Source: Limonium bicolor (Eukaryota > Streptophyta > Magnoliopsida > Caryophyllales > Plumbaginaceae). From it: a stretch of DNA of 64,000 nt. Shown piece by piece: positions 2,423 to 40,210 of this stretch (positions are counted from its first letter, which is position 1; every line of letters begins with the position of its first letter). A program made the translations under genes and the position numbers. The stretch is from positions 37,959,030 through 38,023,029 of the forward strand of contig CM041780.1 in NCBI GenBank assembly GCA_023374045.1. Reading direction: 5' to 3'. A model generated the notes under the pieces. That model had not been told where the DNA came from. It made no database searches and saw nothing but the letters and a program-made list of their open reading frames with translations.

Positions 2423-2425
2423 GTC

Positions 2426-12440: not shown

Positions 12441-12486
12441 AGCATCATCAGCATTCCTACATCTACACATTATTTCATTTATTATA

Positions 12487-19561: not shown

Positions 19562-19566
19562 ACGGG

Positions 19567-21036
19567 TGATAAGTGTCCAAATGAGCATGTTTTATAGGTG
19601 TATTTCATATATTATATTAGCACTTTTCTTGCTCATTTCTCCACTTTGGTTAGTTTTCCTCTAGTTATGTTTTATTGATTATCTCACAAATTTATTGGTT
19701 AAACATGAGGAAAATCAAGCTAGGAGCAAAGTACACGAAGAGGCGAACGCATAGGCGCAGACGGGGATCAAATCGGAGCTAAAACGAACATTTTAGAAGC
19801 AAAACACCCTTGGTCCGGACCAGTGTCCGGATCAGCTGGTCCGGACCAACATGCCAGCGCGCCAGAAGAAGGAAATCGACATGGTCCGGACCACACTGGT
19901 TCGGACAGTGGTCCGGACATGTCGACTATGCCAGCATACAGAGCGCAACAACAGCCGTGTGAAGAGATAAAATCCTTATCTCTTCACACGCAAATACCAC
20001 CGCCTTACCTTCCCCTTTACCCTATATTTCTCTATAAATACACCTCCAAACCTCCAAAATATCTCATTCCACCCTAAACTTATGCCATTTTCCTTCCATA
20101 AAAATACCATAAAACTCTCCAAAAATCATACATCTCATCCACATATTATCCACATAAATTCCATACAACACCTCATTCCATAAAAACATTCCATTTCCAT
20201 ACCGTTGTTCTGTCCAACCTCTGCCCAAATATTAGCAGTCAAGATAATGGAGCTGAATTAATTATCTTTCCCAGATGATTTCTTTTACTTCTCATTCTGT
20301 CTTTTTAATTATGTTGGGCTAAGAGGATTTACTCTGGGCGAAGGTTTGGCCGTAATTTGTTTAATTATGTAATCTATATTACTACCGGTTAAAATAAATA
20401 CAGTTTGTTACGATTAAAGTTTATCTCTCACCTTTTTAATAAATTTCATGAATTTATTAAAATGCTTTACTAAGTCTATTTTGATCAGACCAGTGATAAA
20501 TAGACAGGTTAATTAAGCCGTAAATCTGGAGAAAGCTTATTATGATTTAATAAGTTAGTATTTTCAGATGCAAATATAATTCCTCGCACTTAACCGCCGT
20601 TTACATATGTTTTGCTCGAACCTGGATTAGACCGAGCATTTTCTGGTAAACGAGTTCTTATGAGTCTATGACTTAGTCCTTAAGATAATAATAGGAATTT
20701 TGCCAAACTATTTTAATAAACCGGTAGAGATAGCATAATTAATCAGATTATATAAACCTGAACCCGGAGTTCCGTTTAATTTGTTTTCAACTCAGTTAAT
20801 TTAATTTGTTGCTTTACTTTACAAAAAAACAAGTCAATTAATTCCCCCCTTTTGTGACAAGCTTAGGTACTATATTATTTCGCTATAGGTCCCACGGTTT
20901 GACCCCGGCCACTTCTGTCTTACTATGCTACTGCGACCGGGTTTTATTTGCAGCCCGACGGATATTTTGAGTATTAATTTCTTTCTCAATTGTATTAATT
21001 ACACCAGTTCTAACCACTCACAATATACAGTCTGCA
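19567..21036 (+). repeat. 5' LTR of B1
   Basis: This LTR starts TGATAAGTGTCC and ends ACAGTCTGCA. It contains GGTCCGGACC palindromes (19811-19920), a perfect hairpin (19956-19990) and a TATAAATA box (20033-20040). The 84-codon frame from 19823 runs through the palindromes and recurs in every copy, but looks non-coding. Confidence 0.95.
19811..20040 (+). promoter_or_regulatory. LTR B promoter: palindromes, hairpin and TATA box
   Basis: Two compound dyads built from GGTCCGGACC and related half sites occupy 19811-19849 and 19882-19920. A perfect 15-bp stem with a five-base loop follows at 19956-19990. The box TATAAATA is at 20033-20040. The order suggests an upstream regulatory block next to the core promoter. 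It is repeated in all four LTR copies of B here. Confidence 0.75.
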
Positions 21037-21039
21037 AAA

Positions 21040-21057
21040 TGGCGCCGTTGCCGGGGA
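21040..21057 (+). other. Primer-binding site of B1
   Basis: TGGCGCCGTTGCCGGGGA lies three bases after the LTR. This is the tRNA-Asp type site found in Athila and related elements. The B2 copy is at 38589-38606. Confidence 0.9.
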
Positions 21058-21483
21058 CTTGATTTATTCTAGTCCCTAAGCCCCGGATAATTCACCTGTT
21101 ATACTATAATAATCTGTTACTATTAATTGGACACCTGACTTTGGACATCTGACTACGGACATCTGACTTCTGACATCTAATTACTAACTCTTTATTTTAT
21201 TGTCATTTAATTTTATGTCATTTAATTTCCATTGTCCTTCAAATTTCCAGTATACTAACTACTAACTTATAATTTCCAGTATACTAACTACTAACTTATA
21301 ATTTCTGTCATTTAAATTTCTGTCATTTAATTTTCTGTCATTTTAATTTCCATTGTCTCTAACTACTAACTTATAATTTCTGTACCTAACTACTAACTTA
21401 TAATTTTTGTCAACTAATTCCTAACATTTTATTTATTCTAACACATCACGAGTTTCTTTTTTTTGGTTTGTTTTGAGTGGTGA

Positions 21484-22668
21484 ATGCCTTTTACCAGGTC
21501 ACACAGCAACCCAGAAAATATTAATAATCACACGGTTGGTTACAATCCAGAGATCGAGAGAACCTTTCTGCGCACTCTAAGGCAGAGACGAACTCAACAA
21601 TACAATACTACCACAGTGATAGAATCTGACCGGGAAGCTGACATGGCATCTACACCAGCGACAGTTCGAAATATCAACAGGCCGTCTAATCAAGGACAAC
21701 AGTCTGCCATCATCCTTCCTCACCTTAGCCCATCCGAATACGATGAGTGGCAGAAGCTGAAGCCATATCATCAAATCCGGTGTGTAAAGGAGTTGGGCAT
21801 GTTTGATGGTTCCAGTCCAGACGAAGCCCTGTTACATGTTACTAAGTTCTTGCAGCATGCCAACAGTTTAACTGCGACCGACGCAGTACTCCAGTACGCA
21901 AGACTGTCATTATTTCCTCACAGCCTGACGGGAAACGCGAGCAAATGGTATCATAGCCTGACACCAAGTACCATTGGTACTTGGGATGACATGGCCACCA
22001 AGTTCTACGACAAATTTCTACCCCCGAGCCGAACGTTGGAGATGATTGCTGAAATCTATAATTTCAAGCAACCAGGGTCGGAGAATATTTGTGAAACTTG
22101 GGACCGTTTCAAAGGACTACTACTTACTTGTCCTCACCATGGTCTGACGAAAGAACAAGTATCACAATTGTTCTACAAATGCTTGATCGGTCCATGCAGA
22201 ACAATGGTACTGTCCTCGTTAGGGGCTGACATTCTGAAAAAGCCAGGAGCACAATTTCTGAATAGCATGGAGTCTCTCTGTGAAGAAATCAGAGACTGGG
22301 CCTCCGGTGGATCAAGGAGCGGTACTCCAGGTTTATACCATGTTGGGGAAAGTGATAACAAGTTTGACCAGCTGATGAAAAGCCATGAGCAACTCATGGA
22401 GAGCAATGCTCAGCAGGCAACAAAAGTAAGTACTCTGCAGAAAGTGGTTGAGCAGATGGCTATGAACTCCTACCCTCAGCAAGCTAAGTCGATGATTTCC
22501 CGATCATCTACAATCCCTCCAGGCTATGCACCTCTGTCCCAATCATCTCCTGCTAATTCTTGTACGCAATGTGGTGGGCCTCATGACTATGAACAATGCC
22601 CCCAACTACAAGAATTAAAAGCAGTAGAGGAGGCAAACTATCTCACCAACAATTCAGGGTACAGATAA
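21484..22668 (+). CDS. Gag, N-terminal part (matrix/capsid and zinc knuckle), element B1
   Basis: This 394-residue frame encodes the structural protein that would build the virus-like particle. The retrotransposon Gag capsid fold is recognisable at about residues 95-250, with the W-Y and W-D-D-M-A-x-K-F-Y-D-K-F signatures. A C-x2-C-x3-H-x4-C knuckle lies near residue 360 (CTQCGGPHDYEQC). The start ATG at 21484 follows a non-coding leader after the primer site. The frame ends at TAA (22666-22668), but the same frame reopens six codons on (22684), so the stop splits one longer Gag. A CAA-to-TAA change would explain this; B2 shares it, so it predates the copying. Best matched to Athila-type Gag. 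Confidence 0.92.
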   Translation: MPFTRSHSNPENINNHTVGYNPEIERTFLRTLRQRRTQQYNTTTVIESDREADMASTPATVRNINRPSNQGQQSAIILPHLSPSEYDEWQKLKPYHQIRCVKELGMFDGSSPDEALLHVTKFLQHANSLTATDAVLQYARLSLFPHSLTGNASKWYHSLTPSTIGTWDDMATKFYDKFLPPSRTLEMIAEIYNFKQPGSENICETWDRFKGLLLTCPHHGLTKEQVSQLFYKCLIGPCRTMVLSSLGADILKKPGAQFLNSMESLCEEIRDWASGGSRSGTPGLYHVGESDNKFDQLMKSHEQLMESNAQQATKVSTLQKVVEQMAMNSYPQQAKSMISRSSTIPPGYAPLSQSSPANSCTQCGGPHDYEQCPQLQELKAVEEANYLTNNSGYR

Positions 22669-22683
22669 CCTTGGCAACATAAC

Positions 22684-23958
22684 ATGCAATCCAACCTTCG
22701 CTACTCAAACACCGACAATATTCTAAACCCACATACACTACAACCATCTCAAAATTACAGACCTCAGTCCAATTTTCAAGGAGGCCAAAGGCAGTATCAG
22801 CAACAGCCTTATGGCAATGAAACTTCTTCGAGTCGACCAACTCAACCTCCTTCGAATCCTGAGTCTGAAATGTCTCAAATGCAAGAGATGTTTAAAGCAA
22901 TGATGGGTAAGTCCCGAGACACGCAAGAGGAGGTCACATCCCTTCGCAAAGACCAAAGAGCCTTGCAGTCCCAAATACAACAGCTTCTAACTCAACAAAG
23001 ACCTCCTGGTCAAATCCCTTCACAAACCAATCCAAATCCAAAAGAGTATGCAAAAGCAATTTACGTAGTGGACCAGCCCATCACATTAGCTCAAAAGGAG
23101 CAACAACCCGAGAGTGAAATGGTCCATGAAGTGGAGCAGCAGGCTGAGGAAGAGTACCTCGACATGAACCAACTGAAGCTCTATGCCAAATTAGTTGTGA
23201 TAAACGAAATGATGGAAGGTCCACTAGACCTTACATCACAGCAACCGGAGAGCAAACTGGTTCATATAGTGGACAACTTACCTGAGGATTTGAGTTACTC
23301 TATATCACCACCCCCGTTCGAACCTGAGCAAACGGTATCAAACCTTCTACTTGAGCTTGAAGACAAGCCATCACAGGACAACTTCTACCTCAACTTCATG
23401 GAGTCTCCTCCCTCTAAAGTCAATTACCGTTATTTTCCCTCCTTCTCTGTGCTATATCCAGAAAATGAGGATAGTTACATCCTCAAAAATGAAGAGGAGG
23501 AAATGCTCGCTCCCGCCAGAACATCCAAACAAAACACCAATATCACCTTCAAGGAGCCATCTCCCTCTGAAGTTGAAATCAATCAAGGCTCTTCCTATGA
23601 GCCTCTTCAAAAAGATGAGGATATATATGTCCTCAAATTTGAGGAGGAGGAGCCATCCAACTTTGATCCTCATACCAAGGGACATCCATTGAAAAATCTG
23701 GGCCTTTCTCCAAAGAAAAATAATGACCACCCAACCCACCCATTGAAGCCCACTTCCACCTTCATTTTCGTTCCAGGGGAGGAAATTTACATCCTCGACT
23801 CTGAACAAGCACCACCACTACCATCTTATATCCATACGGCTAAACAACAGAGGGAGAATGTTTACATTCTCCAGTTTGAGGAAGCACTACAACCATCACC
23901 CGGTTTTCAATACAATATTGATGGGAGCAAACACCTCCTTCAAAACCAGGTTTTGTGA
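22684..23958 (+). CDS. Gag C-terminal part with acidic repeat tail, element B1
   Basis: This 424-residue frame is in phase with the preceding Gag frame and separated from it by one stop and five codons. Residues 1-60 are Q/N/P-rich. Residues about 60-105 are a predicted coiled coil of M/Q/L heptads. A segment near 115-130 (NPNPKEYAKAIYV) matches the end of Athila-type Gag. The tail is unusual: four motifs of form [E/D]-[D/E/N]-x-Y-[I/V]-L-x-x-E at residues about 263, 313, 367 and 392, set in an acidic, proline-rich background. I know no family with this tail. There is no protease active site. An internal start at 22684 or stop readthrough would be needed for translation. Confidence 0.75.
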   Translation: MQSNLRYSNTDNILNPHTLQPSQNYRPQSNFQGGQRQYQQQPYGNETSSSRPTQPPSNPESEMSQMQEMFKAMMGKSRDTQEEVTSLRKDQRALQSQIQQLLTQQRPPGQIPSQTNPNPKEYAKAIYVVDQPITLAQKEQQPESEMVHEVEQQAEEEYLDMNQLKLYAKLVVINEMMEGPLDLTSQQPESKLVHIVDNLPEDLSYSISPPPFEPEQTVSNLLLELEDKPSQDNFYLNFMESPPSKVNYRYFPSFSVLYPENEDSYILKNEEEEMLAPARTSKQNTNITFKEPSPSEVEINQGSSYEPLQKDEDIYVLKFEEEEPSNFDPHTKGHPLKNLGLSPKKNNDHPTHPLKPTSTFIFVPGEEIYILDSEQAPPLPSYIHTAKQQRENVYILQFEEALQPSPGFQYNIDGSKHLLQNQVL

Positions 23959-25185
23959 AGTTTGTCTTTTACTACTGTAATTGTTGCCGTAATACTTTGT
24001 TTTGATCCAGGTGGTTCGGTCCTACATATTGCCAATCTCCTGTTCCCGGTACTACCATTGTCAACTTTCATTTATGATCCGGGATAATGAAGAACATGCG
24101 TCTAGCTAGAGACGTTAAACCCGGGCAGCTTGGTGGGAGGCAACCCACTATCTATCTTTTGTCTTTCCTTTAATTTAATGTTGTTTTCTTTTTTGTACTA
24201 TATTTCCCTTTTATATGTTATAATAAAATGCAGGTTTTACTTGAGTTCTTCTGGCTGTGTAGAATATTCCTTACAGGTACATTTCATGACATTCCACAGC
24301 TGCACTCAAGTGTGGGGGAGCTCTACACACTCTACGGAATTTGGGGAGTACACTCTTTCCTTTATTTATTGCATGCCCTGTTAATTTAATTCCATCTACG
24401 GAATGAGGGCATTGCTTGAGCTTAAGTGTGGGGGAAGAGCCCTTTTTCAGGGCATTTTGTGCTTAAAATGTTTTAATCTCTCTACTTATCTTGCATTTGT
24501 TCAAAAATTAAAATTATGGACCCTGCTAATATAGGTTGTTCTCTTTATGAATAAATACTATTATGAATTGTGGGATAAATGGTACAAATTTAAAAATTTT
24601 CATTTGATTACTTTTGAGGAGCATTTTTATGGGTGTGACCAAATGATCTGCAATGGTTGGATTTTTATTGCTCAGGGGTTCTTTCTGTCTTCTTTCTTAG
24701 GGATTGCTAAGGGGTGCTTCTCTGTTAAAAAATAAATGTAATAAAGCAAGGGACTTGCGAGACACCATTGGTAACCAACAAAGAGAGTTGAGTGTTCTTA
24801 AAAACAAAAGCTTGATGCTTAAATATGATCTTCTCATCTCTTATGCAAAAGTGAAACAAATGCATGAATCTATTTTTCCTTTTGTTTTCTCCTCAATGCC
24901 CATTCTTGAGAGAAGTTGGCCGTGGTAAAAGTTCTCAAAGTCACCTTAACAAAGAAGCATTGAAGTACCTTGGATCATACCCCGAAACTCTATTTTATTT
25001 TTACCCTGAGCACACCTATGCCACCAGCAGTTGATTCTTCACACTCCTCAAAAAGTTTAAAGATCGTGTATTGTTCACCTCCTTATCCTACCCTTCATAA
25101 TAATATTTGTTAGTATTGAGCATTCCCTACTTACTTGGGTACATGGTTTTGCTTGAGGACAAGCAAAAAGATAAGTGTGGGGGTG
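23959..25185 (+). other. 3' untranslated region of B1 with three polypurine-like tracts
   Basis: No coding sequence is recognised. AAGTGTGGGGG occurs three times (24308-24318, 24424-24434, 25173-25183). The last copy abuts the 3' LTR and is the expected polypurine tract. The others are identical in core and lie about 750-870 bp upstream. Confidence 0.7.
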
Positions 25186-26658
25186 TGATAAGTGTCCAAA
25201 TGAGCATGTTTTATAGGTGTATTTCATATATTATTAGCACTTTTCTTGCTCATTTCTCCACTTTGGTTAGTTTTCCTCTAGTTATGTTTTATTGATTATC
25301 TCACAAATTTATTGGTTAAATATGAGGAAAACCAAGCTAGGAGCAAAGTACACGAAGAGACGAACGCATAGGCGCAGACGGGGATCAAATCGGAGCTAAA
25401 ACGAACATTTTAGAAGCAAAAGACCCTTGGTCCGGACCAGTGTCCGGATCAGCTGGTCCGGACCAACATGCCAGCGCGCCAGAAGAAGGAAATCGACATG
25501 GTCCGGACCACACTGGTTCGGACAGTGGTCCGGACATGTCGACTATGCCAGCATACAGAGCGCAACAGCAGCCGTGTGAAGAGATAAAATCCTTATCTCT
25601 TCACACGCAAATACCACCGCCTTACCTTCCCCTTTACCCTATATTTCTCTATAAATACACCTCCAAACCTCCATTAAATCATATCTCATTCCACCCTAAA
25701 CTTATGCCATTTTCCTTCCATAAAAATACCATAAAACTCTCCAAAAATCATACATCTCATCCACATATTATCCACATAAATTCCATACAACACCTCATTC
25801 CATAAAAACATTCCATTTCCATACTGTTGTTCTGTCCAACCTCTGCCCAAATATTAGCAGTCAAGATAGTGGAGCTGAATTAATTATCTTTCCCAGATGA
25901 TTTCTTTTACTTCTCATTCTGTCTTTTTAATTATGTTGGGCTAAGAGGATTTACTCCGGGCGAAGGTTTGGCCGTAATTTGTTTAATTATGTAATCTATA
26001 TTACTACCGGTTAAAATAAATACAGTTTGTTACGATTAAAGTTTATCTCTCACCTCTTTAATAAATTTCATGAATTTATTAAAATGCTTTACTAAGTCTA
26101 TTTTGATCAGACCGGTGATAAATAGACAGGTTAATTAAGCCGTAAATCTGGAGAAAGCTTATTATGATTTAATAAGTTAGTATTTTCAGATGCAAATATA
26201 ATTCCTCGCACTTAACCGTCGTTTACATATGTTTTGCTCGAACCTGGATTAGACCAAGCATTTTCTGGTAAACGAGTTCTTATGAGTCTATGACTTAGTC
26301 CTTAAGATAATAACAGGAATTTTGCCAAACTATTTTAATAAACCGGTAGAGATAGCATAATTAATCAGATTATATAAACCTGAACCCGGAGTTCCGTTTA
26401 ATTTGTTTTCAACTCAGTTAATTTAATCTGTTGCTTTACTTTACAAAAAAACAAGTCAATTAATTCCCCCCTTCTGTGACAAGCTTAGGTACTATATTAT
26501 TTCGCTATAGGTCCCACGGTTTGACCCCGGCCGCTTCTGTCTTACTATGCTACTACGACCGGGTTTTATTTGCAGCCCGACGGATATTTTGAGTTTTAAT
26601 TTCTTTCTCAATTGTATTAATTACACCAGTTCTAACCACTCACAATATACAGTCTGCA
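25186..26658 (+). repeat. 3' LTR of B1
   Basis: This LTR is nearly identical to 19567-21036 over 1,473 bp, with a handful of substitutions and small indels. It is followed by the target duplication ACGGG. The near identity of the two LTRs indicates recent insertion of B into the ancestral A LTR. Confidence 0.95.
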
Positions 26659-26689
26659 ACGGGTGTGTTTTAAAGGATGAGAAAATTTC

Positions 26690-26878
26690 TGGAATGGTCC
26701 GACCCAGTTGGTTGGGTCGGACAGATGAGGTTTAGAAGACGGAAAATTTCTGGAATGGTCCGACCCAGTTGGTTGGGTCGGACATGGGTCGGACAAGTGA
26801 AGTTTTTGCAAACCCGAAAGTTACTGGAAGGGTCGGACCCAGTTGGTGGGTCGGACGGTGGGTCGGACGACCCTTAAC
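26690..26878. repeat. Hairpin array of LTR A, right part
   Basis: Three units of about 65 bp each carry GGTCCGACCCAGTTGG paired with GGGTCGGAC, plus extra ATGGGTCGGAC half sites. The 3' LTR copy (44218-44404) has one more half site. Together with 19466-19561 this makes about five hairpins once B1 is removed. Confidence 0.88.
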
Positions 26879-28359
26879 ACTTAAAAAAAAAGAAATTTTG
26901 AATTCTAAGGATGATAATTGGTAATAAGGTATACCATGGGTAGGTAAGTAATGATGAGGACCCAAGAACTTAAGGGATTAAGTTAAGTTAAGTAAAAACC
27001 TTAATGTTTAAAGGTTGAGTTTATAAGGTTAAGTGGTAAGGATTTAAGAGGATATCCAATGGGAATCTTTAGGGACTAAGTGAGTTAAGTAAGGTGCAAA
27101 TAACTAATGGCCTAAGAATGAATCAATGTTTTAGGTTTGTGAATTGGGACCCTGGAGAAGGTTAAAGAACGACGATCGACGGTGAACGGTACAATCTTTC
27201 TTGTGACCTGCTTGCTAACGAGGTGTCCCTCGGCTTGTGTGCTATCTGTTTACTTGCTATGACTAAGACAAGATAAAGCATGCAACCGGTTATATTTGTT
27301 CTCGTTGTGTATGTGTTTCCTTTACACTAACCCACGAGACTTGAGAATGCTACTAACCGAGTTTAGTACTTACTGAGTTAAGAATAAGAGTTAAGTATTG
27401 GTGATTGTTGGTTAATACCCGTTAAGGTTTAACTAACACATGGTGTTTAAGATTTCTACTAACTGGAACTTGAGTGAGGAAACCCGGGACTGACTCCGGT
27501 CATGCATTCTAAGGAAAGGGGGACGGTATCTGAATCAGATCCGCCCTCCGCTTAAGGACTTGTCTTCGGACTTGTAGCCTAGGGCCGGTTGCCGGCTCAG
27601 CTACGCTGGACTCCCGTCCAGGGTAGGTGGCATTAAGATGGTGCGGTGGTATCACCTAAATCCCAGGTTTGAAATTAAGCTACAACCATTCCCTTCCAGG
27701 AACGGTTTGTATACTGAGAATAAGTTGAGGTTAAGATTAAGGTAAGGTAAGGAACTGAGGTTAAGGAATTCAGGACTAAGGAGGGGGTTACTAACCCACT
27801 TGATAAGGGAACGCTTGTGTCGTTCATTGTTTGTGAACTAAGTATGTTCATTTGTGGATTGTTGTTTATTGCACTTCATATCATGCTTGTGTATGTAATC
27901 AATTTCCATGCTATCGACAATTAGTCGTCGTAGCCCCGTTAGCTTGGGGGCCATGAGAGGGAGTACCAGCATTCGTGCTGACCCCCTTTGGGGGCTGTTT
28001 TTACACTTGCAGGCAAGAGACCCATGAAGTCGCACCACGAGAGTAGGAGCGGTTAGACTTAGGATGGGTTGTTTATTTTGAGCACGGGTTGCGCTTGTGC
28101 TCCCGTCTGTTTATATTGAAACTGAAGTAAGTTTGTAAATATGACTTGGATACTTAAACTCGGATGGTTGGTGGTATTTTGGATGGTGATGTTTGGGTTG
28201 GTTGTTATTTTGGATAAGTGTTGTAATTGATAAGGCCGGTATAATCTAACGATCAGACCGTGGCAAGGTCCAGGTGTTGTTATTTCCACTGCGACGAATT
28301 CGATTAAGTGTTCAGTTTTGCGATAACCACGATTGGCTTTGGATGGGGTGTTACAAAAG

Positions 28360-28372
28360 TGGTATCAGAGCG
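28360..28372 (+). other. Primer-binding site of element A
   Basis: TGGTATCAGAGCG begins four bases after the 5' LTR. It is the initiator-tRNA-Met type site typical of chromoviruses. A seven-base inverted repeat (28364-28370 with 28381-28387) overlaps it. Confidence 0.93.
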
Positions 28373-28589
28373 TAGTTACACTCTGATCAAGAAATACCAG
28401 ACATAAGAAACCACCGAGTTAGGATATAAGTTAAGGAATAAGTGATGGGTGAAGGGTGTGAGAAGTTAGAGTGAGTAGAGTCAGATGACCACTAATAAGT
28501 GTGGATCGTCTTTACCGTCTACGGACGTTATAAATTCGTTAACCGAACCAGTGGTGGATACGAATCTAATGTGAGTTATGCTTGTTCAG

Positions 28590-29991
28590 ATGGCAGGACG
28601 TCCTAGAGGAGGCCGAGGTCGTGGCCAGGGCGATGATGCTTCAGGGATACCGGGAGGGCAGACGATCGCCGAGATCGTAGCTGCCGCATTAGGGCACATG
28701 GGCTATCAGCCTGGTGTTGGTGCACCACCTCCACCGCCACAACCCAGGGAACCAAATTGGGTGAAGAGTCTTGCAGACCTTCGACCCGCACACTTTAAGG
28801 GGGAGACCGATCCCGCCAAGCTTGAGGCGTACATCTCCGAGCTGGAGACCGCCTTTGAGACCCTTGATGTCCCTGCTGGGATCAAGGTGCGTCTGACTGC
28901 TTTCTATCTGAAGGGGGCGGCAGGCGATTGGTGGAAGCTGGTGAGGGCCGAGCATGTGGCCAATCCAGAGTTCGGCTGGGAGCAGTACACCGCCTTGCTA
29001 CGAGCGAAGTACTACCCCGCCCATGTCCAGACGAAGAAGCGCTTGCAGTTGGATGCGCTTAAGCAGACCGACAAGATGACGGTGGACGAGTATTACTTAG
29101 AGTTCACCGCCTTGCTCCGTCTTTTGCCAGGTCTTGGATATTCAGACCAGATCCTGGAGGACCGCTTCTATGGCGGGCTTAGCCATCGACTCCGCTACGG
29201 CATGGGGCCGACGAGTTACACTACCTTGCAGGTAATAAGAATGATTGAGATTTGGGTAAGTAAATGAGTAAGATTTAGATTATGAGAAATAAGAGTGACT
29301 AATACTGTGGAAAGCAGGAGTGCTATCATGCCGCTGCTAAGGTTGAGATAACCGTCCAGCTGAGGGACGAGGAGAATGCTAAGAGGAAGAATGCTGGTAA
29401 GAGCTCGGAGAGTCAAGGGCAAGGAGGGTACAAGAAACAAAAGTACCAACCTCAGGCCCAGAAAAATCAGAACCCAAAAGGAAAGGAGGAAAAGGAGAAG
29501 GCTCCGGAGGAGCCATTGAAGTTGACGTATGCTTACGCAACTACACCCCTGCGCTCTAGGGCGCCAAAGGGTAAGGAATTGGTATTGAGTGAGTTAAGAA
29601 ACAATTAGTAACCGTTTGAGATATGAGTATTGATATTGTGAATGATCAGGAACTGAGACTGAGAAGGGAGCCGGTGGTGGCTACCAGCGACGCTACATCT
29701 GTAGGTGGTGTCACAGGGACCACCCCGGGCTCGATTGCAAGGGGAATAAGGTGGAGTGCAACTACTGTGGGGTATACGGACACCGGGCATATGAGTGCTA
29801 CCGGAACCCTGCTAGCAGAGCCTATAGGCCCGATACCAGGGGCAAGGGCAAGACCGATCAGGGAGCTGGATCTGACGGTCAGAGGAAGGGGCAGCAAGCC
29901 GCAGACAAGAACCCACGGGTGACCCAGAAGTCGGGACCCACACTACACTTGGTGGACCGGGACGATGAGCCTGAACCCTCATCGAGGCCAG
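28590..29991 (+). CDS. Gag of element A, three exons
   Basis: Structural particle protein assembled from exons 28590-29231, 29318-29570 and 29650-29991. Exon 1 holds a G/R-rich N-terminus and a retrotransposon Gag capsid domain (about residues 60-210; the signature GAAGDWW is visible). Exon 2 is a K/E/Q-rich linker. Exon 3 holds two zinc knuckles, CRWCHRDHPGLDC and CNYCGVYGHRAYEC. The knuckle frame is reached only if both introns are removed, and the phases (0, then 1) fit exactly. Start 28590 is preferred over the upstream in-frame ATG 28578 because the M-A-G-R-P-R-G start resembles other chromovirus Gags. Read without splicing, exon 1 runs into a stop at 29265-29267, giving a Gag without knuckles. 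Exon 3 ends in phase 1 at a GT donor. Confidence 0.85.
29232..29317 (+). other. Predicted gag intron 1
   Basis: The 86-bp intron has donor CAG|GTAATAAG and acceptor GCAG|GAG, and is AT-rich. A branch-like CTAAT (near 29300) lies about 15 bases from the acceptor. Removal joins phase-0 codons and continues the capsid reading. Confidence 0.8.
29571..29649 (+). other. Predicted gag intron 2
   Basis: The 79-bp intron has donor AAGG|GTAAGG and acceptor ATCAG|GAAC. Removal joins phase 1 and opens exactly the zinc-knuckle frame, which the unspliced frame misses. Confidence 0.8.
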
Positions 29992-30123
29992 GTACCGCTA
30001 TAACCACTTAGTAATAAAATTGCCTGCTTACCGCATTATCATGCATGTTTGGTGAATAATTGAGTTAAGTAAGAATGAGATGAGATTAGAACTTAAGTAA
30101 GATATAACCTACTACCACTTTAG
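29992..30123 (+). other. Predicted intron 3, between zinc knuckles and AlkB exon
   Basis: The 132-bp intron has donor CCAG|GTACCG and acceptor TTTAG|GAAGC. Removal is in phase 1 and places the AlkB frame directly behind Gag. The same donor also fits an acceptor at 31013-31014, giving protease in frame. Confidence 0.78.
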
Positions 30124-30859
30124 GAAGCTTCAACATTTGCTACCCAATACCATTTACACCTAACCCGGAGCACACCAACATCGAAACCATAGACTTTCCA
30201 ACCGAACAATGTCAGGTTATCCGCCCAGGTATGATCTTATTAAGGGGATACCTGACACCCGAAGCGCAAATAGCCATCATCAGGAAATGCAGTCAACTAG
30301 GAATGGGACCGGGAGGTTTTTACACATCGGAGTACCTAGGGGGAGCAAAGATGAAATTAAAAATGATGAGCTTAGGCAAGGATTGGAATCCGTATGCCAA
30401 GAACTACCAAACCACGAGGATGCAAGATGGAGTCTCACCACCGGGAATACCCGAAGAGTTCCATCCAGTTATTACACAAGTCGTGGAAATCGCTCAGCAA
30501 TTGGAAGCTGAACCGATTCCAGACATTCAAGCAGACATTTGCATTGTGAACTTCTACGAGAAGGATGGGCAACTTGGACTACACCAGGATAGGACGAGAC
30601 GGAGTCTCTCGAAAGAGGGATACCCGTAGTATCTTGGTCCATTGGGGATGATGCAGAGTTTTTATACGGAGAGCAGAAGCGTGCGGACCGTGCGAATAAG
30701 TTGGTACTTAAGTCTGGAGATGTATTAGTTATGGGAGGAGAATCAAGAATGTTATACCATGGGATTAAGAGAATCAAGTTGAATACAGCACCGTCAGCAG
30801 TAATGAACGCGACGCATATGAGACCTGGGAGATTAAACCTAACCTTTAGACAATATTAG
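30124..30859 (+). CDS. AlkB-type 2-oxoglutarate/Fe(II) dioxygenase domain inside retrotransposon A
   Basis: About 245 residues form a nearly complete AlkB-family oxygenase, a family that removes methyl groups from DNA or RNA bases oxidatively. Visible are the R-P-G-M-x-L-L entry, a substrate-side segment LKMMSLGKDWNP, V-N-F-Y, and the iron ligands H-x-D (HQD, 30582-30590) and distal H (30758-30760). The 2-oxoglutarate-binding motif RLNLTFR is at 30830-30850. Spacing and motifs most resemble plant ALKBH1-type proteins, not viral AlkB domains. One base is missing near 30591-30595 relative to a continuous reading; otherwise the two halves fit. The stop at 30857 comes right after the domain's natural end. 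It lies between the zinc knuckles and the protease, where no such domain is usual. A host gene capture is inferred. Substrate is unknown; element RNA or DNA is the obvious candidate. Confidence 0.93.
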
Positions 30860-31014
30860 TCATGTAATGTTAGAATGAGATGAGGGATGAGATGTAAGAT
30901 TGAAGCACATGTTGTAAACAAGATGGTTATGAATAAAATAACAGTGTTGTTCATATAAATTGTTACGACTCTTGTTATACCATCAATACTCATGAAGCTT
31001 GTGAACACAATTAG
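30860..31014 (+). other. AlkB exon 3' flank with polyadenylation signal and pol acceptor
   Basis: AATAAA lies at 30932-30937, 73 bp after the AlkB stop, so the Gag-AlkB message could end here. The segment ends in ACAATTAG (acceptor at 31013-31014). From 31015 the protease frame is open in the phase needed by the gag exon 3 donor. Confidence 0.6.
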
Positions 31015-31445
31015 GTTATGGACTCGGTACGGAAGGTGCATTAAGCATACTTACAGAGGCACAGGCCGACGCTAGCGGTACTATCCTCACCGGCACCTTT
31101 CCGATTAATGGGATTGAGGCATCAGTTCTCTTCGACTCAGGGGCCTCGCATACCTTTGTCTCGGCATCTTTCGCGAGCAGGTTGGGGCTAGACGCTGATG
31201 AGCTACCCGACTTCATGGTTACGCTCCCGTCTAAGGAGAAGGTTCGTTGCACTCGTTACTACCGAGGAGCCACTGTCAGAATTAAAGGAGAAGACTATCC
31301 AGTCAGTTTTATTGAGTTCAGTGAGATAGGATTTGATGTTATCTTCGGGATGAACTGGTTGGAGCGGCACAAGGGACGTATCCTCTGCGCCGAGCATAGA
31401 TTGCTGCTCAGGAGTCTGTCTGGGGTAACAATATCATACCGCTAG
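31015..31445 (+). pseudogene. Protease domain, start of pol exon, element A
   Basis: Retropepsin-type aspartic protease that would cut the polyprotein. The active-site motif F-D-S-G-A-S-H-T-F lies at 31131-31157 (Asp 31134-31136). The frame is open from 31015, with no plausible initiator before the conserved part, consistent with entry by splicing from gag exon 3. A TAG at 31443-31445 interrupts it, but the same frame continues beyond into reverse transcriptase, so this is a single nonsense change. Confidence 0.85.
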
Positions 31446-32440
31446 AGGCCTAGAGAGCCTTCGACTAAGATCATCACCACCATGGCAATGTATAAGGAAT
31501 TAAGGAGAAAAGAAGAAGTGTACCTCTGCTATGTACAGGACATAGAGAGAGACCCCGAGTTTGACCCCAACTTACCGGTAGTGTCGGAGTTCCCCAAATT
31601 ATTTCCACGGGAACTGCCCGGCATGCCACCCACTCGGGAGGTAGAGTTCACCATTGAGCTGCTACCTGGTACCGGACCGATAGCCAAGGCACCATACCGC
31701 ATGGCTCCGGCAGAAATGAATGAATTGAAAGAACAGTTGAAAGATTTGTTGGATAAGGGATTTATTAGACCAAGTGTGTCACCATGGGGAGCGTCAGTCC
31801 TCTTTGTGAAGAAGAAGGATGGTAGTCTCCGCCTCTGCATCGACTACAGAGAGCTGAATGCAGTAACAGTGAAGAATAAGTACCCACTACCCCGCATTGA
31901 CGATCTGTTCGATCAGTTGAAGGGAGCATCTGTGTTTCCAAGATTGATCTCAGATCGGGGTATCATCAGATAGCCATTAAGGAGGGAACATTGAGAAGAC
32001 GACATTCCGGACACGATACGGCCACTATGAGTTTACAGTGATGTCGTTCGGTTTGTCGAACGCACCGGCGAAGTTTATGGATCTGATGAACCGCTTGTTC
32101 CGGGAGCAGCTGGACAAGTTGGTTGTGGTGTTTATTGATGATATTTTGATATACTCGAAATCTAAGGCTGAACATGAGAAACATCTGAGGAGGTATTGGA
32201 ATATTGAGGGAGAACCAGCTATATGCTAAGTTCTCCAAAAGAGTTTTGGCTTGACCAGGTCTCTTTCCTAGGTCATGTCATCTCAGATGCTGGGATCTCA
32301 GTGGATCCAGCAAAGATTGATGCCGTATGTACTTGGCCAAGGCCGAAGACTGTTACCCGACATCCGGAGCTTCTCGGTCTGGCAGGTTACTACAGGAGAT
32401 TTGTTAGGGATTTCAGCAAGGTCGCGAAACCGATGACCAT
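31446..32440 (+). pseudogene. Reverse transcriptase of element A, frameshifted
   Basis: Ty3-type reverse transcriptase. Visible motifs in order are the P-Y-R-M-A-P-x-E block (31690-31715), the [15 protein letters not shown] block (about 31777-31820), and the catalytic F-I-D-D (32131-32142). The S-F-L-G-H-V-I-type block lies around 32262-32285 and the A-G-Y-Y-R-R-F block near 32380-32405. Frame breaks occur near 31935-31940, 31988-31994, 32190-32215 and 32350-32375. Those I can place are losses of single bases, often in short runs. The gene is full-length in content but not readable as given. Confidence 0.88.
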
Positions 32441-33080
32441 CTGATGAAAGATGCACCGTTCTTGTGGACGACTGTGAAAAATCATTTCAGAGTTTGAAGG
32501 ACTCACTGACCACTGCACCGGTTCTGACCATTCCGACGTAGAGGCTTTGAGGTTTATTATGATACATCCGGCAGAGGGCTGGGTTGCGTGCTCATGCAAT
32601 GGCAATTGGTGGCATATGCCTCACGACAGTTGAAGAAACATGATGAGAACTACCCCACACATGATTTAGAGCTGGAGCTGTAGTCTTTGCTGGATATGGC
32701 GCCATTACTTATACGGGGTTAGTGTGACGATCTACAACACACCTATCATAAGAGTTTGAGATACATATTCACTCAGAAGGAGTTAATCTCGACAGAGGAG
32801 ATGGTTAGAGTTTCTGAAAGACTATGACATTGACCTCTAGTACAAAGAGGAAAGGCCAATGTTGTAGCAGACGCCCTGAGCCGTCGAGCACACTCACTCC
32901 ATTCGCTAGTTTCTTTCTCCAGCTTGGTTGATGAGGTGCGAGAGGCTCAGAGGATAGATGAGTATATGAGAGAGGTCAGACAGAAGCTGACAGATGGTAC
33001 CTTTGAGAGTCAGAAATATGACTTCAACTTCACGACGATGATCTGATCAGACTTAAGGGCCGGTTATGCATACCACGGGG
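32441..33080 (+). pseudogene. RNase H and linker of element A, frameshifted
   Basis: Remains of the Ty3-type RNase H. Visible are a [15 protein letters not shown] block (about 32555-32600), the A-Y-A-S-R-Q-L block near 32613-32635 and the V-A-D-A-L-S-R-R end block (32863-32886). Several one-base losses and stop codons separate them. A linker with D/E/R-rich sequence leads to the integrase. Confidence 0.75.
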
Positions 33081-34245
33081 CAACACGGATCTGAAAGACC
33101 GTATACTTAGAGAATCACACTGTTCTTCAGTTTCCATCCATCCGGGAGCCTCTAAGATGTATAAAGACATGAAGAGATACTTCTAGTGGTCGGGGATGAA
33201 GACAGATGTTGCCGAGTTCGTCTTGAGGTGTCTCACATGCCAGAAGGTAAAATTCGAGCACCGACCACCGGGCGAAATGGTACAATCGATGCCAGTTCCG
33301 GAATGGAAGTTCCATGATATCTCCATGGACTTTGTAGTTGGACTCCCACCTGCTAGGGGAGGTCTCAACATGATATGGGTGGTGGTGGATCGCCTTACCA
33401 AAGTAGCCCGATTCATACCGATGAAGGATACTTGGAAGGTGACCAAATTAGCTGAGTTACTTGAGAAAGAAATAATGAGACATCACGGGATACCGAAGAC
33501 CATAGTGTCAGATAGAGATACCAGATTCCTTTCGAGGTACTGAAGAGCTACCAGAGAAGCGTTGGGTACATAACTCAAGCTGAGTACCACGTGCCATCCT
33601 CAGACAGATGGTCAGACTGAGCGTACTATTCAGACACTCGAGGACATGCTGAGAGCATGTGCCTTAGACTTCCAGGGCAGTTGGATTGACAAATTGCATC
33701 TGATCGAGTTTTCATATAACAACAGCTATCACGTTTCGATCAAGATGGCACCTTTTCAAGCGTTGTACGGTAAACCATGTCGTACACCGCTCTGCTGGGA
33801 TGAGTCGAGTGGGACGGTCATTATAGGACCAGAGTACTTAGAGCAAGTTAAGGCTGAAGTTCAGCAAATCAGGAGAACATAAAGCTGCCAAGATAGGCAA
33901 AGTCGTATGCTGTATGTTCGACGCGGGACCTTGAGTTTCGCAGTGGGCGACCAGGTATTTCTGCGAGTTTTCACCGATGAAGGGTGTATTCAGTTTGGGC
34001 AGAAGGGCAAATTAAGCCCGAAGTTTGTTGGTCCTTATGAGATTAAGGAGCGGGTGGGCCCGGTTGCTTATAGGTTGAATCTACCTGCTGAACTGGGTAA
34101 AGTGCATGATGTTTTTTCATGTTCACAGCTAAAGAATACATGCACCACCCCTCCCATGGTTAAGAACCTGAGAGTTGGCTTTAGAAAACCGAATATGAGA
34201 TCCGTGGAGACTCCTCAGAGAATCTTGGACAGTAAGACTAGGGAC
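33081..34245 (+). pseudogene. Integrase of element A, broken
   Basis: An N-terminal H-H-C-C zinc region is visible, ending C-L-T-C-Q (33228-33243). The catalytic D is at 33328-33330 (M-D-F), the second D at 33511-33513 (V-S-D-R-D) and the E at about 33619-33621 (Q-T-E-R). A TAG at 33184-33186 and frame breaks near 33541, 33590 and 33880 disrupt it. The C-terminal part (33907-34257) is an open 116-codon frame with the K-F-V-G-P-Y-E-I block typical of Ty3 integrase tails. Confidence 0.88.
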
Positions 34246-34363
34246 ACCTCGCCATAAGTCAGTGCGACTGGTGAAGGTTCTCTGGTCTAACCAGATGTCG
34301 AAGAGGCCACGTGGAATTAGAGGATAGATGAGGGCGAAGTACCCTTCTTTGTTTACTGACTAG
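34246..34363 (+). pseudogene. Chromodomain at integrase C-terminus, element A
   Basis: The blocks V-R-L-V-K-V-L-W-S-N and E-E-A-T-W, followed by Y-P-S-L-F, are typical of the chromodomain of plant chromoviruses, which guides integration to chromatin. At least two one-base losses (near 34306 and 34330) break the frame. This supports the Tekay/Del-type assignment. Confidence 0.8.
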
Positions 34364-34664: not shown

Positions 34665-37600
34665 TGAAATGCCCAAACTTAGATATGGTGTTTAATGATA
34701 AAATTAGTTATAAGGAGGCTAAATAATGCCTTAGAAACATTAAGAAACCTTTCTAATCAAAGAAAACATAGGAAACACCAAAAGAGCAGTTTAAGCAAAA
34801 CGTGCTCTAAGCTTGGAGAGATTTGGGTGAGTACCCAAATATTGTCTAAGACCTTAGTAATATCCTAATGGTCATTTTAAATCATTACCAAAGAAAACCA
34901 AGCTTGAAAACAAGTTAAACACAAAATGTGCTTTAAGGAGTCTTAAAGCACATTTTTGAAAAATTGTCTTGTAAATGGGTTTTGAATGGCTAAATGTCCA
35001 TCATTACTCTTTCTTAACATGGTACTAATTAGTATCACATTAGGAAGTCTAAATCAATGGGAAATCAAAATTTCACAACAATGTGCCTTGTTTTGTGAAT
35101 AGTAATTTAATTAAGCTAGTTTATAACATAAGTCAATATAAGTGAGATATTTGGTCAACAAAGACTTAAGTACCCCTTGTTACTTAATGGGGGCCGGTTT
35201 TTACAAGGTGAGTCACCACCTTTATTAGTTATTAAGTAAACAAATAATTATAAGCAAACTACTATTTACTTTACAAGATAAATATCTTACCTTAATCACC
35301 TCTCCTCATCTCTTCATTCTCTCTTGTTCCCACGGTTTCTCTTGCTCTCTCCCTTCTCCATTGACGTGAAGAGCAGCCCCATGCTAGCTTCAACTTCTCT
35401 TGCACACATCTTGCTCATTTTAGCTCCAAAACCAAACAAATTACATATTCCTCTTAGTTAGCTCAAGCTCTCTCTTTCTATCTTTTCAAAACTTCAAGAG
35501 CTTTGATTTGGTGCCAAGCCAAACCACCATTAGATGAGGAAACTCAAGTTTGGAGACTCCATTGGCTTCTCCATTCTCTTAGGTAAAGAAAGTGTAAGAA
35601 AATCTAGGTTTCCATCATTTTTCTTCATAACCGAAAATACATGCTCATGAGGCTTCATTTTAATGCCTTTTATAGCTTGTTTTTACTCTCCAAAGGATAG
35701 AGGAGGTCCTTCTTGCTTCATATCCAAGCTTGTCTTGAGAAACCAAGGTAAAACAATCACCTTAATACCTTAAAGCACATTTTAACCTAGGGTTTGTTCC
35801 TTAGGGTTAATGTATTATCTAGTCTCATTGGAGTCATTGGATATTGGTTAGAACATTGGCAAGGAGTTTAAGTGGTGACCGAGATTGGGCAAGAAAATCT
35901 AAGGAAGAAAGTTAGTAAAGCTTGGGAAAGAACAAGGTAAATTACTTACCTTAAGGTGTTTTATTGTTTAAGGGATGGGATTTAGATATGTGATGAGTTT
36001 AGTGTAGAGTTTACATTAGAAAAGGGCTATATATGACCTAGGAGAAACAATGACTATACTTGTGAACTTGTGACTAAGGAGCAAATGAGAAAAAGGAGAT
36101 AGTTAAGAATATCAAGGTGAATTACAAGAAGCATTTTATTTAAATGGGAGCTTTGTTGTGTGTATTCGCAGGTTAAAGGCAAATATATGTGGAAATTTGG
36201 TGGATAAGATTATTGTCATTTAAGGGCCTAAGTGCCAAGCATTTAAGTTTATACACTATGTAATGATGTGGTGTAGTTTTGGTGTAAATTGTGTGTTAAG
36301 GTGTTGTGATGAGAATTTGAGTGATCTTGGTTGTTTGATGGTGAAAAACCAAGTGTTTGGATGTAACAATATACTAGAGAACCCATGGCAAAATTTAGAG
36401 GAGAACCTAAGTGTTTGAGATGTTCTAAGGAGATTTCATGACTAAGGAAGTACTAGGAAGTTCTAAAGGTTGTCTTGATGAAAAAGGGTGAGAATAAGGT
36501 GTTTTAATGACTTATAATGACTTAGGTATCACTATGAAGGATTTAGGAATCAAAGTATGTACTTGGGTATTTAGGACTTAGGTAAATGTGGATAAAAGAA
36601 GCTAGGACACTTTAGTAAGTTTGATGTAAAAGAGCATAAAACTTTTAGGTGGTTTAGGTAGAAACTAGAGTTTAGAATTTAAGGAAGCGTTGGAAAATGT
36701 AATAGGGGTGCAAGTGGTGTATATGGTTGGTCAAGTTCTTAAGGAGGTAACTTTTGGCTAGTAGAAGTTCTAGGTGAAAGGGATGTTGAAATGTAGGAAA
36801 GAGATAAGTGTTAAGTGTTAGTAGTTGTTGTAAGAATGAGTAAAGGATTGGAATGATCTTTGAAGGTTGTTTTAATGAGTTTGGAATGGTTTAAGGTGGG
36901 TTTAAGGGTCTAAATGATGTTAGAACACATTGGAAGGCTTGAGGAAAAGTTTAGTGAAGATTTGACAATGTTTGGGCATGTTCTGGTGGCGTCCGACCCA
37001 GGAGTCCGACCCAAGTTTGGGTCGGACGGCCTCTGTTAGACACCAGTGAATGGTTCTGGAACGGTCCGACCCAGAGGATTTGGGTCGGACATGGGTCGGA
37101 CGGGTGATAAGTGTCCAAATGAGCATGTTTTATAGGTGTATTTCATATATTATATTAGCACTTTTCTTGCTCATTTCTCCACTTTGGTTAGTTTTCCTCT
37201 AGTTATGTTTTATTGATTATCTCACAAATTTATTGGTTAAACATGAGGAAAATCAAGCTAGGAGCAAAGTACACGAAGAGACGAACGCATAGGCGCAGAC
37301 GGGGATCAAATCGGAGCTAAAACGAACATTTTAGAAGCAAACACCCTTGGTCCGGACCAGTGTCCGGATCAGCTGGTCCGGACCAACATGCCAGCGCGCC
37401 AGAAGAAGGAAATCGACATGGTCCGGACCACACTGGTTCGGACAGTGGTCCGGACATGTCGACTATGCCAGCATACAGAGCGCAACAGCAGCCGTGTGAA
37501 GAGATAAAATCCTTATCTCTTCACACGCAAATACCACCACCCCCTACCACCCACCGCCTTACCTCCCCTTTACCCTATATTTCTCTATAAATACACCTTC

Positions 37601-39017
37601 AAACCTCCATTAAATCATATCTCATTCCACCCCAAACTTATGCCATTTTCCTTCCATAAAATACCATAAAACTCTCCAAAAATCATACATCTCATCCACA
37701 TATTATCCACATAAATTCCATACAACACCTCATTCCATAAAAACATTCCATTTCCATACCGTTGTTCTGTCCAACCTCTGCCCAAATATTAGCAGTCAAG
37801 ATAGTGGAGCTGAATTAATTATCTTTCCAAGATGATTTCTTTTACTTCTCATTCTGTCTTTTTAATTATGTTGGGCTAAGAGGATTTACTCCGGGCGAAG
37901 GTTTGGCCGTAATTTGTTTAATTATGTAATCTATATTTCTACCGGTTAAAATAAATACAGTTTGTTACGATTAAAGTTTATCTCTCACCTTTTTAATAAA
38001 TTTCATGAATTTATTAAAATGCTTTACTAAGTCTATTTTGATCAGACCGGTGATAAATAGACAGGTTAATTAAGCCGTAAATCTGGAGAAAGCTTATTAT
38101 GATTTAATAAGTTAGTATTTTCAGATGCAAATATAATTCCTCGCACTTAACCGCCGTTTACATATGTTTTGCTCGAACCTGGATTAGACCGAGCATTTTC
38201 TGGTAAACGAGTTCTTATGAGTCTATGACTTAGTCCTTAAGATAATAACAGGAATTTTGCCAAACTATTTAATAAACCGGTAGAGATAGCATAATTAATC
38301 AGATTATATAAACCTGAACCCGGAGTTCCGTTTAATTTGTTTCAACTCAGTTAATTTAATTGTTGTTTACTTTACAAAAACAAGTCAATTAATTCCCCCC
38401 TTTGTGACAAGCTTAGGTACTATATTATTTCGCTATAGTCCCACGGTTTGACCCCGGCCGCTTCTGTCTTACTATACTACTGCGACCGGGTTTTATTTGC
38501 AGCCCGACGGATATTTTGAGTATTAATTTCTTTCTCAATTGTATTAATTACACCAGTTCTAACCACTCACAATATACAGTCTGCAAAATGGCGCCGTTGC
38601 CGGGGACTTGATTTATTCTAGTCCCTAAGCCCCGGATAATTCACCTGTTATATATAATAATCTGTTACTATTAATTGGACACCTGACTTTGGACATCTGA
38701 CTACGGACATCTGACTTCTGACATCTAAATACTAACTCTTTATTTTATTGTCATTTAATTTCCATTGTCCTTCAAATTTCCAGTATACTAACTACTAACT
38801 TATAATTTCCAGTATACTAACTACTAACTTATAATTTCTGTCATTTAAATTTCTGCCATTTAATTTTCTGTCATTTTAATTTCCATTGTCTCTAACTACT
38901 AACTTATAATTTCTGTACCTAACTACTAACTTATAATTTCTGTCAACTAATTCCTAACATTTTTATTTATTCTAACACATCACGAGTTTCTTTTTTTTGG
39001 TTTGTTTTGAGTGGTGA

Positions 39018-40195
39018 ATGCCTTTTACCAGGTCACACAGCTACCCAGAAAATATTAATAATCACACGGTTGGTTACAATCCAGAGATCGAGAGAACCTT
39101 TCTGCGCACTCTAAGGCAGAGACGAACTCAACAATACAATACCACCACAGTGATAGAATCTGACCGGAAGCTGACATGGCATCTACACCAGCGACAGTTC
39201 GAAATATCAGGCCGTCTAATCAAGGACAACAGCCTGCCATCATCCTTCCTCACCTTAGCCCATCCGAATACGATGAGTGGCAGAAGCTGAAGCCATATCA
39301 TCAAATCCGGTGTGTAAAGGAGTTGGGCATGTTTGATGGTTCCAGTCCAGACGAAGCCCTGTTACATGTTACTAAGTTCTTGCAGCATGCCAACAGTTTA
39401 ACTGCGACCGACGCAGTACTCCAGTACGCAAGACTGTCATTATTCCCTCACAGCCTGACGGGAAACGCGAGCAAATGGTATCATAGCCTGACACCAAGTA
39501 CCATTGGTACTTGGGATGACATGGCCACCAAGTTCTACGACAAATTCTACCCCCGAGACGAACGTTGGAGATGATTGCTGAAATCTATAATTTCAAGCAA
39601 CCAGGGTCGGAGAATATTTGTGAAACTTGGGACCGTTTCAAAGGACTACTACTTACTTGTCCTCACCATGGTCTGACGAAAGAACAAGTATCACAATTGT
39701 TCTACAAAGGCTTGATCGGTCCATGCAGAACAATGGTACTGTCCTCGTTAGGGGCTGACATTCTGAAAAAGCCAGGAGACAATTTCTGAATAGCATGGAG
39801 TCTCTCTGTGAAGAAATCAGAGACTGGGCCTCCGGTGGATCAAGGAGCGGTACTCCAGGTTTATACCATGTTGGGGAAAGTGATAACAAGTTTGACCAGC
39901 TGATGAAAAGCCATGAGCAACTCATGGAGAGCAATGCTCAGCAGGCAACAAAAGTAAGTACTCTGCAGAAAGTGGTTGAGCAGATGGCTATGAACTCCTA
40001 CCCTCAGCAAGCTAAGTCGATGATTTCCCGATCATCTACAATCCCTCCAGGCTATGCACCTCTGTCCCAATCATCTCCTGCTATTCTTGTACGCAATGTG
40101 GTGGGCCTCATGACTATGAACAATGCCCCCAACTACAAGAATTAAAAGCAGTAGAGGAGGCAAACTATCTCACCAACAATTCAGGGTACAGATAA
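39018..40195 (+). pseudogene. Gag N-terminal part of B2, frameshifted
   Basis: This is the same protein as 21484-22668 but broken. Relative to B1 it lacks one base near 39165, three near 39211 (in frame), one near 39546, one near 39778 and one near 40083. Every change in length is a loss. Capsid and knuckle segments are all present in pieces. Function as given is unlikely unless the losses are sequencing errors. Confidence 0.9.
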
Positions 40196-40210
40196 CCTTG
40201 GCAACATAAC

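Follow-up and report, generated by a model that had tools for sequence, protein, structure and literature searches.

An ALKBH1-type AlkB exon between Gag and Pol of a chromovirus-type retrotransposon in Limonium bicolor

Element A and its AlkB exon

The window analyzed here is a stretch of 64,000 nucleotides from Limonium bicolor (GenBank assembly GCA_023374045.1, contig CM041780.1, positions 37,959,030 to 38,023,029), which is crowded with nested repeats and long terminal repeat (LTR) elements. One of these, designated element A (17124-45887), carries an exon for an AlkB-family oxygenase between its Gag and Pol coding regions (Table 1). The element possesses Gag, the domain order protease (PR), reverse transcriptase (RT), RNase H and integrase, LTRs, and a primer binding site, which is presumably that of tRNA-Met. 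Its terminal sequences (17124-28355 and 34665-45888) form a direct repeat, 98% alike, and are flanked by ACGGA and ACGAA, a target-site duplication in which four of five bases match. Within the window Pol is interrupted by stop codons and changes of frame and survives as remnants (rve, H2C2, and SH3_Tf2-1); RT, RNase H, and integrase were found in other copies retrieved from a 2.92 Gb genome, with domains being read at loci L027, L032, L022, L041, and L044. In both L027 and L032 Pfam revealed a single RNase H block and no second. Four copies were fetched for a chromodomain check, two of which were open over this region; the C-terminus of integrase matched PF00385 with E-values of 3.4e-5 (L044, 24.1 bits) and 1.1e-4 (L041, 22.5 bits), below the Pfam cut-off of 25.1. 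Element A is a Ty3 element of the chromovirus type, as assigned by domain order and this sub-cut-off chromodomain rather than by an RT tree, and we assume that it resembles the Tekay/Del-like subgroup. Since its AlkB exon is frameshifted and Pol is broken, the window copy is dead.

Table 1. Features of element A in the window
Feature	Position	Strand	Evidence and remarks
5' LTR	17124-28355	+	Split by a nested element at 19566-26659; starts TGAAATACCCC, ends GGGGTGTTACA
Primer binding site TGGTATCAGAGC	28360-28371	+	Lies right behind the 5' LTR
Gag exon 1 (capsid)	28590-29231	+	Retrotrans_gag, E 1.3e-16; codon signal highest in the predicted frame; start codon picked by eye
Intron 1, phase 0	29232-29317	+	Missing from L037 and L050-L053; 459 exon 1-exon 2 junction sites, control 0
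Gag exon 2	29318-29570	+	The frame that continues exon 1 in phase is open and carries the codon signal
Intron 2, phase 1	29571-29649	+	Gone at the predicted sites from L037, L050, L057, and L058
Gag exon 3, two CCHC zinc knuckles	29650-29991	+	Weak zf-CCHC matches; phase-1 donor for both alternative splices
Intron 3 (Gag-Pol), holding the AlkB exon	29992-31014	+	L057, L058, and L059 lack it, with boundaries as predicted; donor unspliced at 3,652 sites
Intron 3a (Gag-AlkB)	29992-30123	+	L054, L055, and L056 lack it, with boundaries as predicted
AlkB exon with its own stop, ALKBH1-type 2OG-Fe(II) oxygenase	30124-30859	+	PF13532, OsALKBH1 fold match, selection; window copy frameshifted
Start of Pol exon: protease	31015-31445	+	RVP_2, E 2e-27; phase-1 acceptor
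Rest of Pol: RT, RNase H, integrase, chromodomain	31446-34363	+	Decayed in the window copy; end is an estimate
3' LTR	34665-45887	+	Same nested element at 37104-44181

The initial annotation of this region had described a nearly full-length AlkB domain possessing the iron triad and an RLNLTFR motif. PF13532 (2OG-FeII_Oxy_2) is indeed encoded end to end, but over two frames: positions 30111-30629 correspond to residues 1-119 of the profile (E 1.1e-16) and 30596-30859 to residues 119-194 (E 2e-24). The frameshift lies inside the domain, just past HxD, and the triad and RLNLTFR are complete only across the break. In full-length copies the whole domain is present with HxD...H and RxxxxxR, and that of L022 matches the complete profile with an E-value of 1.7e-46. 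The start given in the initial annotation, 30124, falls immediately behind a splice acceptor.

The AlkB domain is of the ALKBH1 type. The closest solved structure by sequence is rice 5xeg (OsALKBH1), which the two pieces of the domain in the window match with E-values of 3.5e-36 and 1.5e-28, and an AlphaFold model of the domain (predicted local distance difference test score 88.4) superimposes on OsALKBH1 5xoi with template modeling (TM) scores of 0.84/0.92, a root mean square deviation of 1.6, and 50% identity. The next fold match after rice ALKBH1 is E. coli AlkB (TM approximately 0.7); structures of ALKBH5 rank far lower (TM approximately 0.44), and the domain does not belong to the ALKBH5/9/10 type. 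Residues H159, D161, H219, N148, Y150, R243, and R249 are invariant in all 22 aligned AlkB proteins; their roles are assigned after PMC9289625 and after what is generally established for AlkB-type proteins. A chance domain match was ruled out by the Pfam result, the fold, and the presence of thousands of copies.

The LTRs of element A each contain the same nested LTR element in an identical place. The nested copies differ by a Kimura two-parameter distance of 0.0086, their own LTR pairs by 0.012-0.014, and the LTR parts of element A outside them by 0.014 for each pair; these values suggest recombination or conversion between the LTRs of element A after the nested insertion. The nested element encodes two open reading frames (ORFs) at 21484-23958, one for Retrotrans_gag (E 6.3e-22) and the other, 429 codons long, matching nothing in Pfam. 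It contains no pol ORF of at least 170 codons and is thus perhaps a Gag-only, non-autonomous element. An Rfam scan of 17000-46500 gave no match at gathering scores, and a bacterial promoter and terminator scan of 28300-28700, which is irrelevant here, found nothing.

Splice junctions preserved in retro-copies

The predicted introns of Gag are missing from some retro-copies. Introns 1 and 2 are present in 39 of the 40 copies read; from the remaining one (L037) both are absent at the predicted sites, whereas intron 3 and AlkB remain. A genome-wide count of the spliced exon 1-exon 2 junction (two mismatches or fewer) gave 459 sites as against none for the reversed pattern, which served as the control for all junction counts. 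The first four sites listed comprise L050, from which introns 1 and 2 are missing, and L051-L053, which lack intron 1 only; within the extent of the loci, intron 3a and AlkB are retained in all four.

The third intron is removed in two ways. The exon 3-AlkB junction occurs at seven genomic sites (control 0), three of which were read (L054-L056): 29992-30123 is missing and introns 1 and 2 are kept. In L054 Gag continues from its final codons, without a change of frame, into the complete AlkB domain (...SSRPG/SFNICYP...NLTFRQY, where the slash marks the junction). For the exon 3-PR junction 12 sites were counted (control 0). Three were read: L057 and L058 lack all three introns and L059 the third only, with L057 being open over 779 codons that match gag, protease, and RT. 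Phase 1 was found wherever it was determined, namely at the exon-3 donor (6/6 copies, these being five of five diverged copies plus L022), the AlkB acceptor (6/6), and the PR acceptor (6/6). As exon 3 is followed by AlkB in some retro-copies and by PR in others, we conclude that one exon-3 donor serves two acceptors, giving Gag-AlkB or Gag-Pol.

The order previously proposed for this element, AlkB after two zinc knuckles and before the protease, holds (the knuckles are two CCHC patterns recognized by eye, with weak Pfam matches, E 0.0026-0.0078), but the parts do not make up one polyprotein, AlkB being an alternative exon inside an intron. A single Gag-AlkB-Pol product is ruled out by the AlkB stop, which is kept, and by the joining of exon 3 to either AlkB or PR; an apparent fusion of this kind in L048 is a plain deletion with no splice. 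Neither the splicing nor the frameshift of the window copy had been reported in the initial annotation.

The window-type AlkB has no upstream ATG of its own, which makes the spliced fusion its likely route of expression; inspection by eye revealed an ATG between acceptor and domain in one of six AlkB exons (L049 only). An in-frame stop occurs a few codons into intron 3. Of the 3,671 intron-3 boundaries counted, 19 (approximately 0.5%) are spliced, a rough share as the patterns differ. A fourth intron of 72-80 nt is found within PR in L045-L047 and is absent from the window type and L049, which represents intron turnover within one retrotransposon lineage. A candidate poly(A) signal after AlkB (AATAAA near 30936) is not kept in all diverged copies and was left out of the argument.

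Conservation, selection, and origin of the exon

The exon 3-intron 3 boundary of the window subfamily is found at 3,652 genomic sites (two mismatches or fewer; control 0). The 40 copies that were read are the best 40 of 5,376 first-look candidates in a DNA search, ranked by similarity to the window AlkB; they comprise the window itself and 39 others at 96-97%. AlkB is open to its own stop in 18 of them, L027 being additionally open with the stop lost, and the stop is kept in all 20 copies of one alignment. A protein search using P0003, an AlkB protein, returned 52,095 candidates, the best 141 of which all had E-values of 4.6e-124 or lower, many being open over approximately 252 codons. Diverged copies L045-L049 were chosen from the matches to P0003; their AlkB is 55-61% (L046-L049) or 61-63% (L045) identical to the window type, and all five possess the identical order of Gag exons, zinc-knuckle exon, AlkB, and protease/RT. 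The AlkB stop is present in four of the five, the deletion in L048 having removed it along with the first part of PR. In L045 the AlkB exon is interrupted early on by an in-frame stop. The exon belongs to the element and is no private insertion. Between the two element clades, as represented by L045, L048, L012, and L027, RT is 82-88% and AlkB 60-63% identical.

Copies L012 and L027 are 95% identical to one another in AlkB as against 89% in RT, and the Gag introns of L012 are unlike those of most other copies. Copies of this type look mosaic, as by template switching.

The AlkB exon is under purifying selection. Among the variants common to at least three of the 40 copies, 23 of 34 are synonymous, whereas the mutation spectrum seen in the intron pieces on either side predicts 28% (p 2.2e-6, an optimistic value as the copies are related to one another and were picked by AlkB similarity); in the two wrong frames the counts are 5/34 and 8/34. 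Singletons, of which 52 of 137 are synonymous, should mostly reflect decay after insertion. For PR and for every Gag exon, the same codon test is highest in the frame that had been predicted, with synonymous shares of 0.44-0.63 for the Gag exons versus 0.68 for AlkB, while intron pieces are near neutral, their maximum being 6/10 in one frame of intron 3a. Within the subfamily the pairwise pN/pS of 17 full-length copies is 0.23, and between diverged copies dN/dS is 0.06-0.12 in the seven of 18 pairs for which dS could be estimated.

Phylogenetic analysis was carried out using two AlkB trees, each of 44 proteins, the second drawn from its midpoint. In both trees the AlkB proteins of transposable element (TE) type constitute one long-stemmed clade (support 100/100 and 100/99) that lies among plant ALKBH1 proteins; in the second it consists of L022 (window type), L046-L049, P0002, P0003, P0145, and P0146. 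The sister of this clade differs between the trees. In the first it falls into a weak group (84/57) with conifers, two angiosperms, bryophytes, and algae; in the second it shares a node (99/95) with two conifers, named angiosperms, and two other proteins, but is not part of the main angiosperm group (88/72, weak); bryophytes, a fern, a lycophyte, and algae lie outside the node. On this evidence the capture of AlkB looks old. A GDDAEF motif was found in six of 259 proteins (P0025 and P0026, both from L022, together with P0002, P0003, P0145, and P0146), and, because the last four come from other contigs, AlkB of this type may be present in other plants too. Five stretches in viral contigs (IMG/VR) searched with P0003 fitted a pattern, none of which was confirmed. 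The earlier proposal that a chromovirus-type element had captured a host ALKBH1-like sequence is supported by Pfam, fold, tree, copy number, and selection.

Two annotated proteins deserve mention. P0102 of Cinnamomum micranthum, a host ALKBH1-like protein, has a gag-like N-terminal part (PF03732, E 2.6e-6) and either represents a fusion of gag with a host AlkB gene or has been misannotated. P0027 of Smallanthus sonchifolius contains four AlkB stretches in a single predicted protein, and is probably a tandem gene cluster fused in annotation.

Elsewhere in the window, 57035-57625 and 58838-59524 are likely exons of a host gene, which we take to be CBP60-like; the first matches the N-terminal domain of Calmodulin_bind (E 2.5e-64) and the second has no match. 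A tandem array with a 44-base unit occupies 12467-12870, and related, partly inverted repeats (2415-4096, 13075-14764, and 63254-64000; 81-89% alike) flank much of the window.

Proposed mechanism, rival explanations, and known systems

Overall, the best explanation, and in our judgment a probable one, is that a captured ALKBH1 became an alternative exon, that splice choice determines its use, and that the Gag-AlkB enzyme is selected and acts in particles. An ancestor of the chromovirus lineage would have captured a plant ALKBH1-type coding sequence, which would now constitute an alternative exon in the intron between Gag and Pol. As more than 99% of the counted intron-3 boundaries are unspliced, the full-length unspliced RNA would be the genome that is copied, introns and AlkB thereby being retained. 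Splicing of the exon-3 donor to the AlkB acceptor would give a Gag(-nucleocapsid)-AlkB fusion ending at AlkB's own stop, and splicing to the protease acceptor would give Gag-Pol; where intron 3 is retained, translation would halt a few codons in because of the in-frame stop, presumably leaving Gag alone. The fusion would be maintained by selection as an enzyme that is predicted to be active, and would enter virus-like particles through Gag, there stripping methyl groups from packaged RNA and/or single-stranded cDNA. Rice ALKBH1 is reported to carry out N6-methyladenine (6mA) demethylation on single-stranded or unpaired DNA (PMC10469495), a form also taken by reverse-transcribed cDNA. That we are dealing with an old chromovirus splice switch, by which packaged Gag-AlkB demethylates the element's own RNA or single-stranded cDNA, is a tentative proposal in which our confidence falls slightly short of even. 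If true, and given how long the arrangement has been conserved in diverged families, plants and some of their most abundant retrotransposons would be engaged in a lasting arms race over epitranscriptomic or 6mA control.

Certain points weigh against this interpretation. Splicing was seen in retro-copies alone, and some of the 459 exon 1-exon 2 sites may descend from a few processed founders. The formation of Gag alone by intron retention is a prediction, and the packaging and substrate of Gag-AlkB are likewise putative. Both the 40 copies and the diverged copies were chosen via AlkB and form a non-random sample of AlkB-bearing elements. Lastly, dS between families is near saturation, and 11 of the 18 pairs were not estimable.

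A doubtful rival is that the fusion works chiefly beyond the particle, its targets being host RNA or 6mA in the DNA of the integrated element (R-loops), and that it dampens silencing. Rice ALKBH1, the closest solved relative, does lower 6mA in R-loops and affects chromatin (PMC10469495); yet retro-copies join AlkB to the zinc-knuckle exon of Gag, which favors targeting to particles or element RNA, and an ATG between acceptor and domain was found in L049 alone among the six AlkB exons. We think it unlikely that AlkB repairs alkylated RNA or cDNA (1-methyladenine/3-methylcytosine), as has been proposed for the AlkB of plant RNA viruses, and is no eraser of regulatory N6-methyladenosine (m6A) or 6mA. 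A repair role for viral AlkB is discussed in PMC9289625, and E. coli AlkB, solved with substrates of this type, is the next fold match (TM approximately 0.7), but rice ALKBH1 is nearer (TM 0.84, 50% identity). It is very improbable that AlkB is a passenger exon, a spacer, or a splice regulator for which the enzyme is not needed: the exon is intronic with a stop, Gag-Pol output requires that it be skipped, and it is broken in the window copy and in approximately half of the 40 copies read, but its codon constraint equals or exceeds that of the Gag exons, the catalytic residues are kept, and the synonymous excess (23/34), pN/pS, and dN/dS already speak against this. The chance insertion of a host pseudogene into one copy, for which the window frameshift alone argues, is a negligible prospect and is refuted by thousands of copies, by the selection results, and by diverged copies with the same layout; the initial annotation had itself named a single copy in neutral decay with host-gene introns as the finding that would overturn it, and, as regards copy number and decay, the 3,652 sites, the pN/pS of 0.23, and the dN/dS of 0.06-0.12 are the reverse.

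An AlkB-bearing retrotransposon is not new as such, and the splice switch is the most surprising part of the present system. According to the initial annotation, no described chromovirus is known to have AlkB at this position, with which our literature searches agree, but an AlkB-bearing Ty3 element of another lineage has been published (PMC9289625). This is Gypsy_Pa_2799 of Phalaenopsis, an Ogre/Tat element with a paALKBH5-like ORF2, the product of which binds RNA and removes m6A in vitro; a screen of 121 genomes in the same article revealed 2-ODD domains in two Phalaenopsis species only (PMC9289625). A review of December 2025 names the orchid case (PMC12786077), which was the only AlkB-bearing LTR element found in our own literature search, most subscription journals being outside its scope. 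Both are plant Ty3 LTR elements with an extra conserved AlkB-family domain. Gypsy_Pa_2799 is a Tat/Ogre element of 25 kb with an ALKBH5/9/10-type domain in a separate ORF2, whereas element A is a chromodomain element in which an ALKBH1-type exon is spliced in frame to Gag exon 3. The different ALKBH subfamily, the chromodomain, the position, and the alternative splicing make the AlkB of element A look like a second, separate capture. This suggests two or more captures of AlkB by plant retrotransposons, which differed in both the ALKBH subfamily and the element lineage, such that the orchid case becomes a pattern. One donor with two acceptors provides a concrete mechanism of expression, legible in the genome via retro-copies, and the high copy number and diverged families open the erasure of nucleic-acid methylation by retrotransposons to direct testing.

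In fold, catalytic residues, and 50% identity the domain resembles rice OsALKBH1 (5XEG/5XOI); it differs from plant ALKBH1 in that the TE-type proteins, with their GDDAEF motif, group in a clade of their own. The AlkB exon lacks the long N-terminus of host proteins such as P0033 and is spliced to Gag instead. Betaretroviruses likewise carry an accessory enzyme on the nucleocapsid, their dUTPase being fused to it, between nucleocapsid and protease, by ribosomal frameshifting; in element A the enzyme is AlkB and the joining is by splicing. Flexiviruses and closteroviruses, in which AlkB is located in the viral replicase, are RNA viruses, whereas element A is a retroelement. What they have in common is the uptake of AlkB by a plant-infecting genetic element (PMC9289625). 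As in EVADE, with its short Gag (shGAG), and in Ogre elements, functional introns and alternative splicing separate Gag from Pol products, and the spliceosomal introns of element A are evidenced by retro-copies. EVADE splicing drops the protease part to yield a short Gag, whereas element A, a chromodomain element, chooses between an enzyme fusion and Gag-Pol (PMC12786077).
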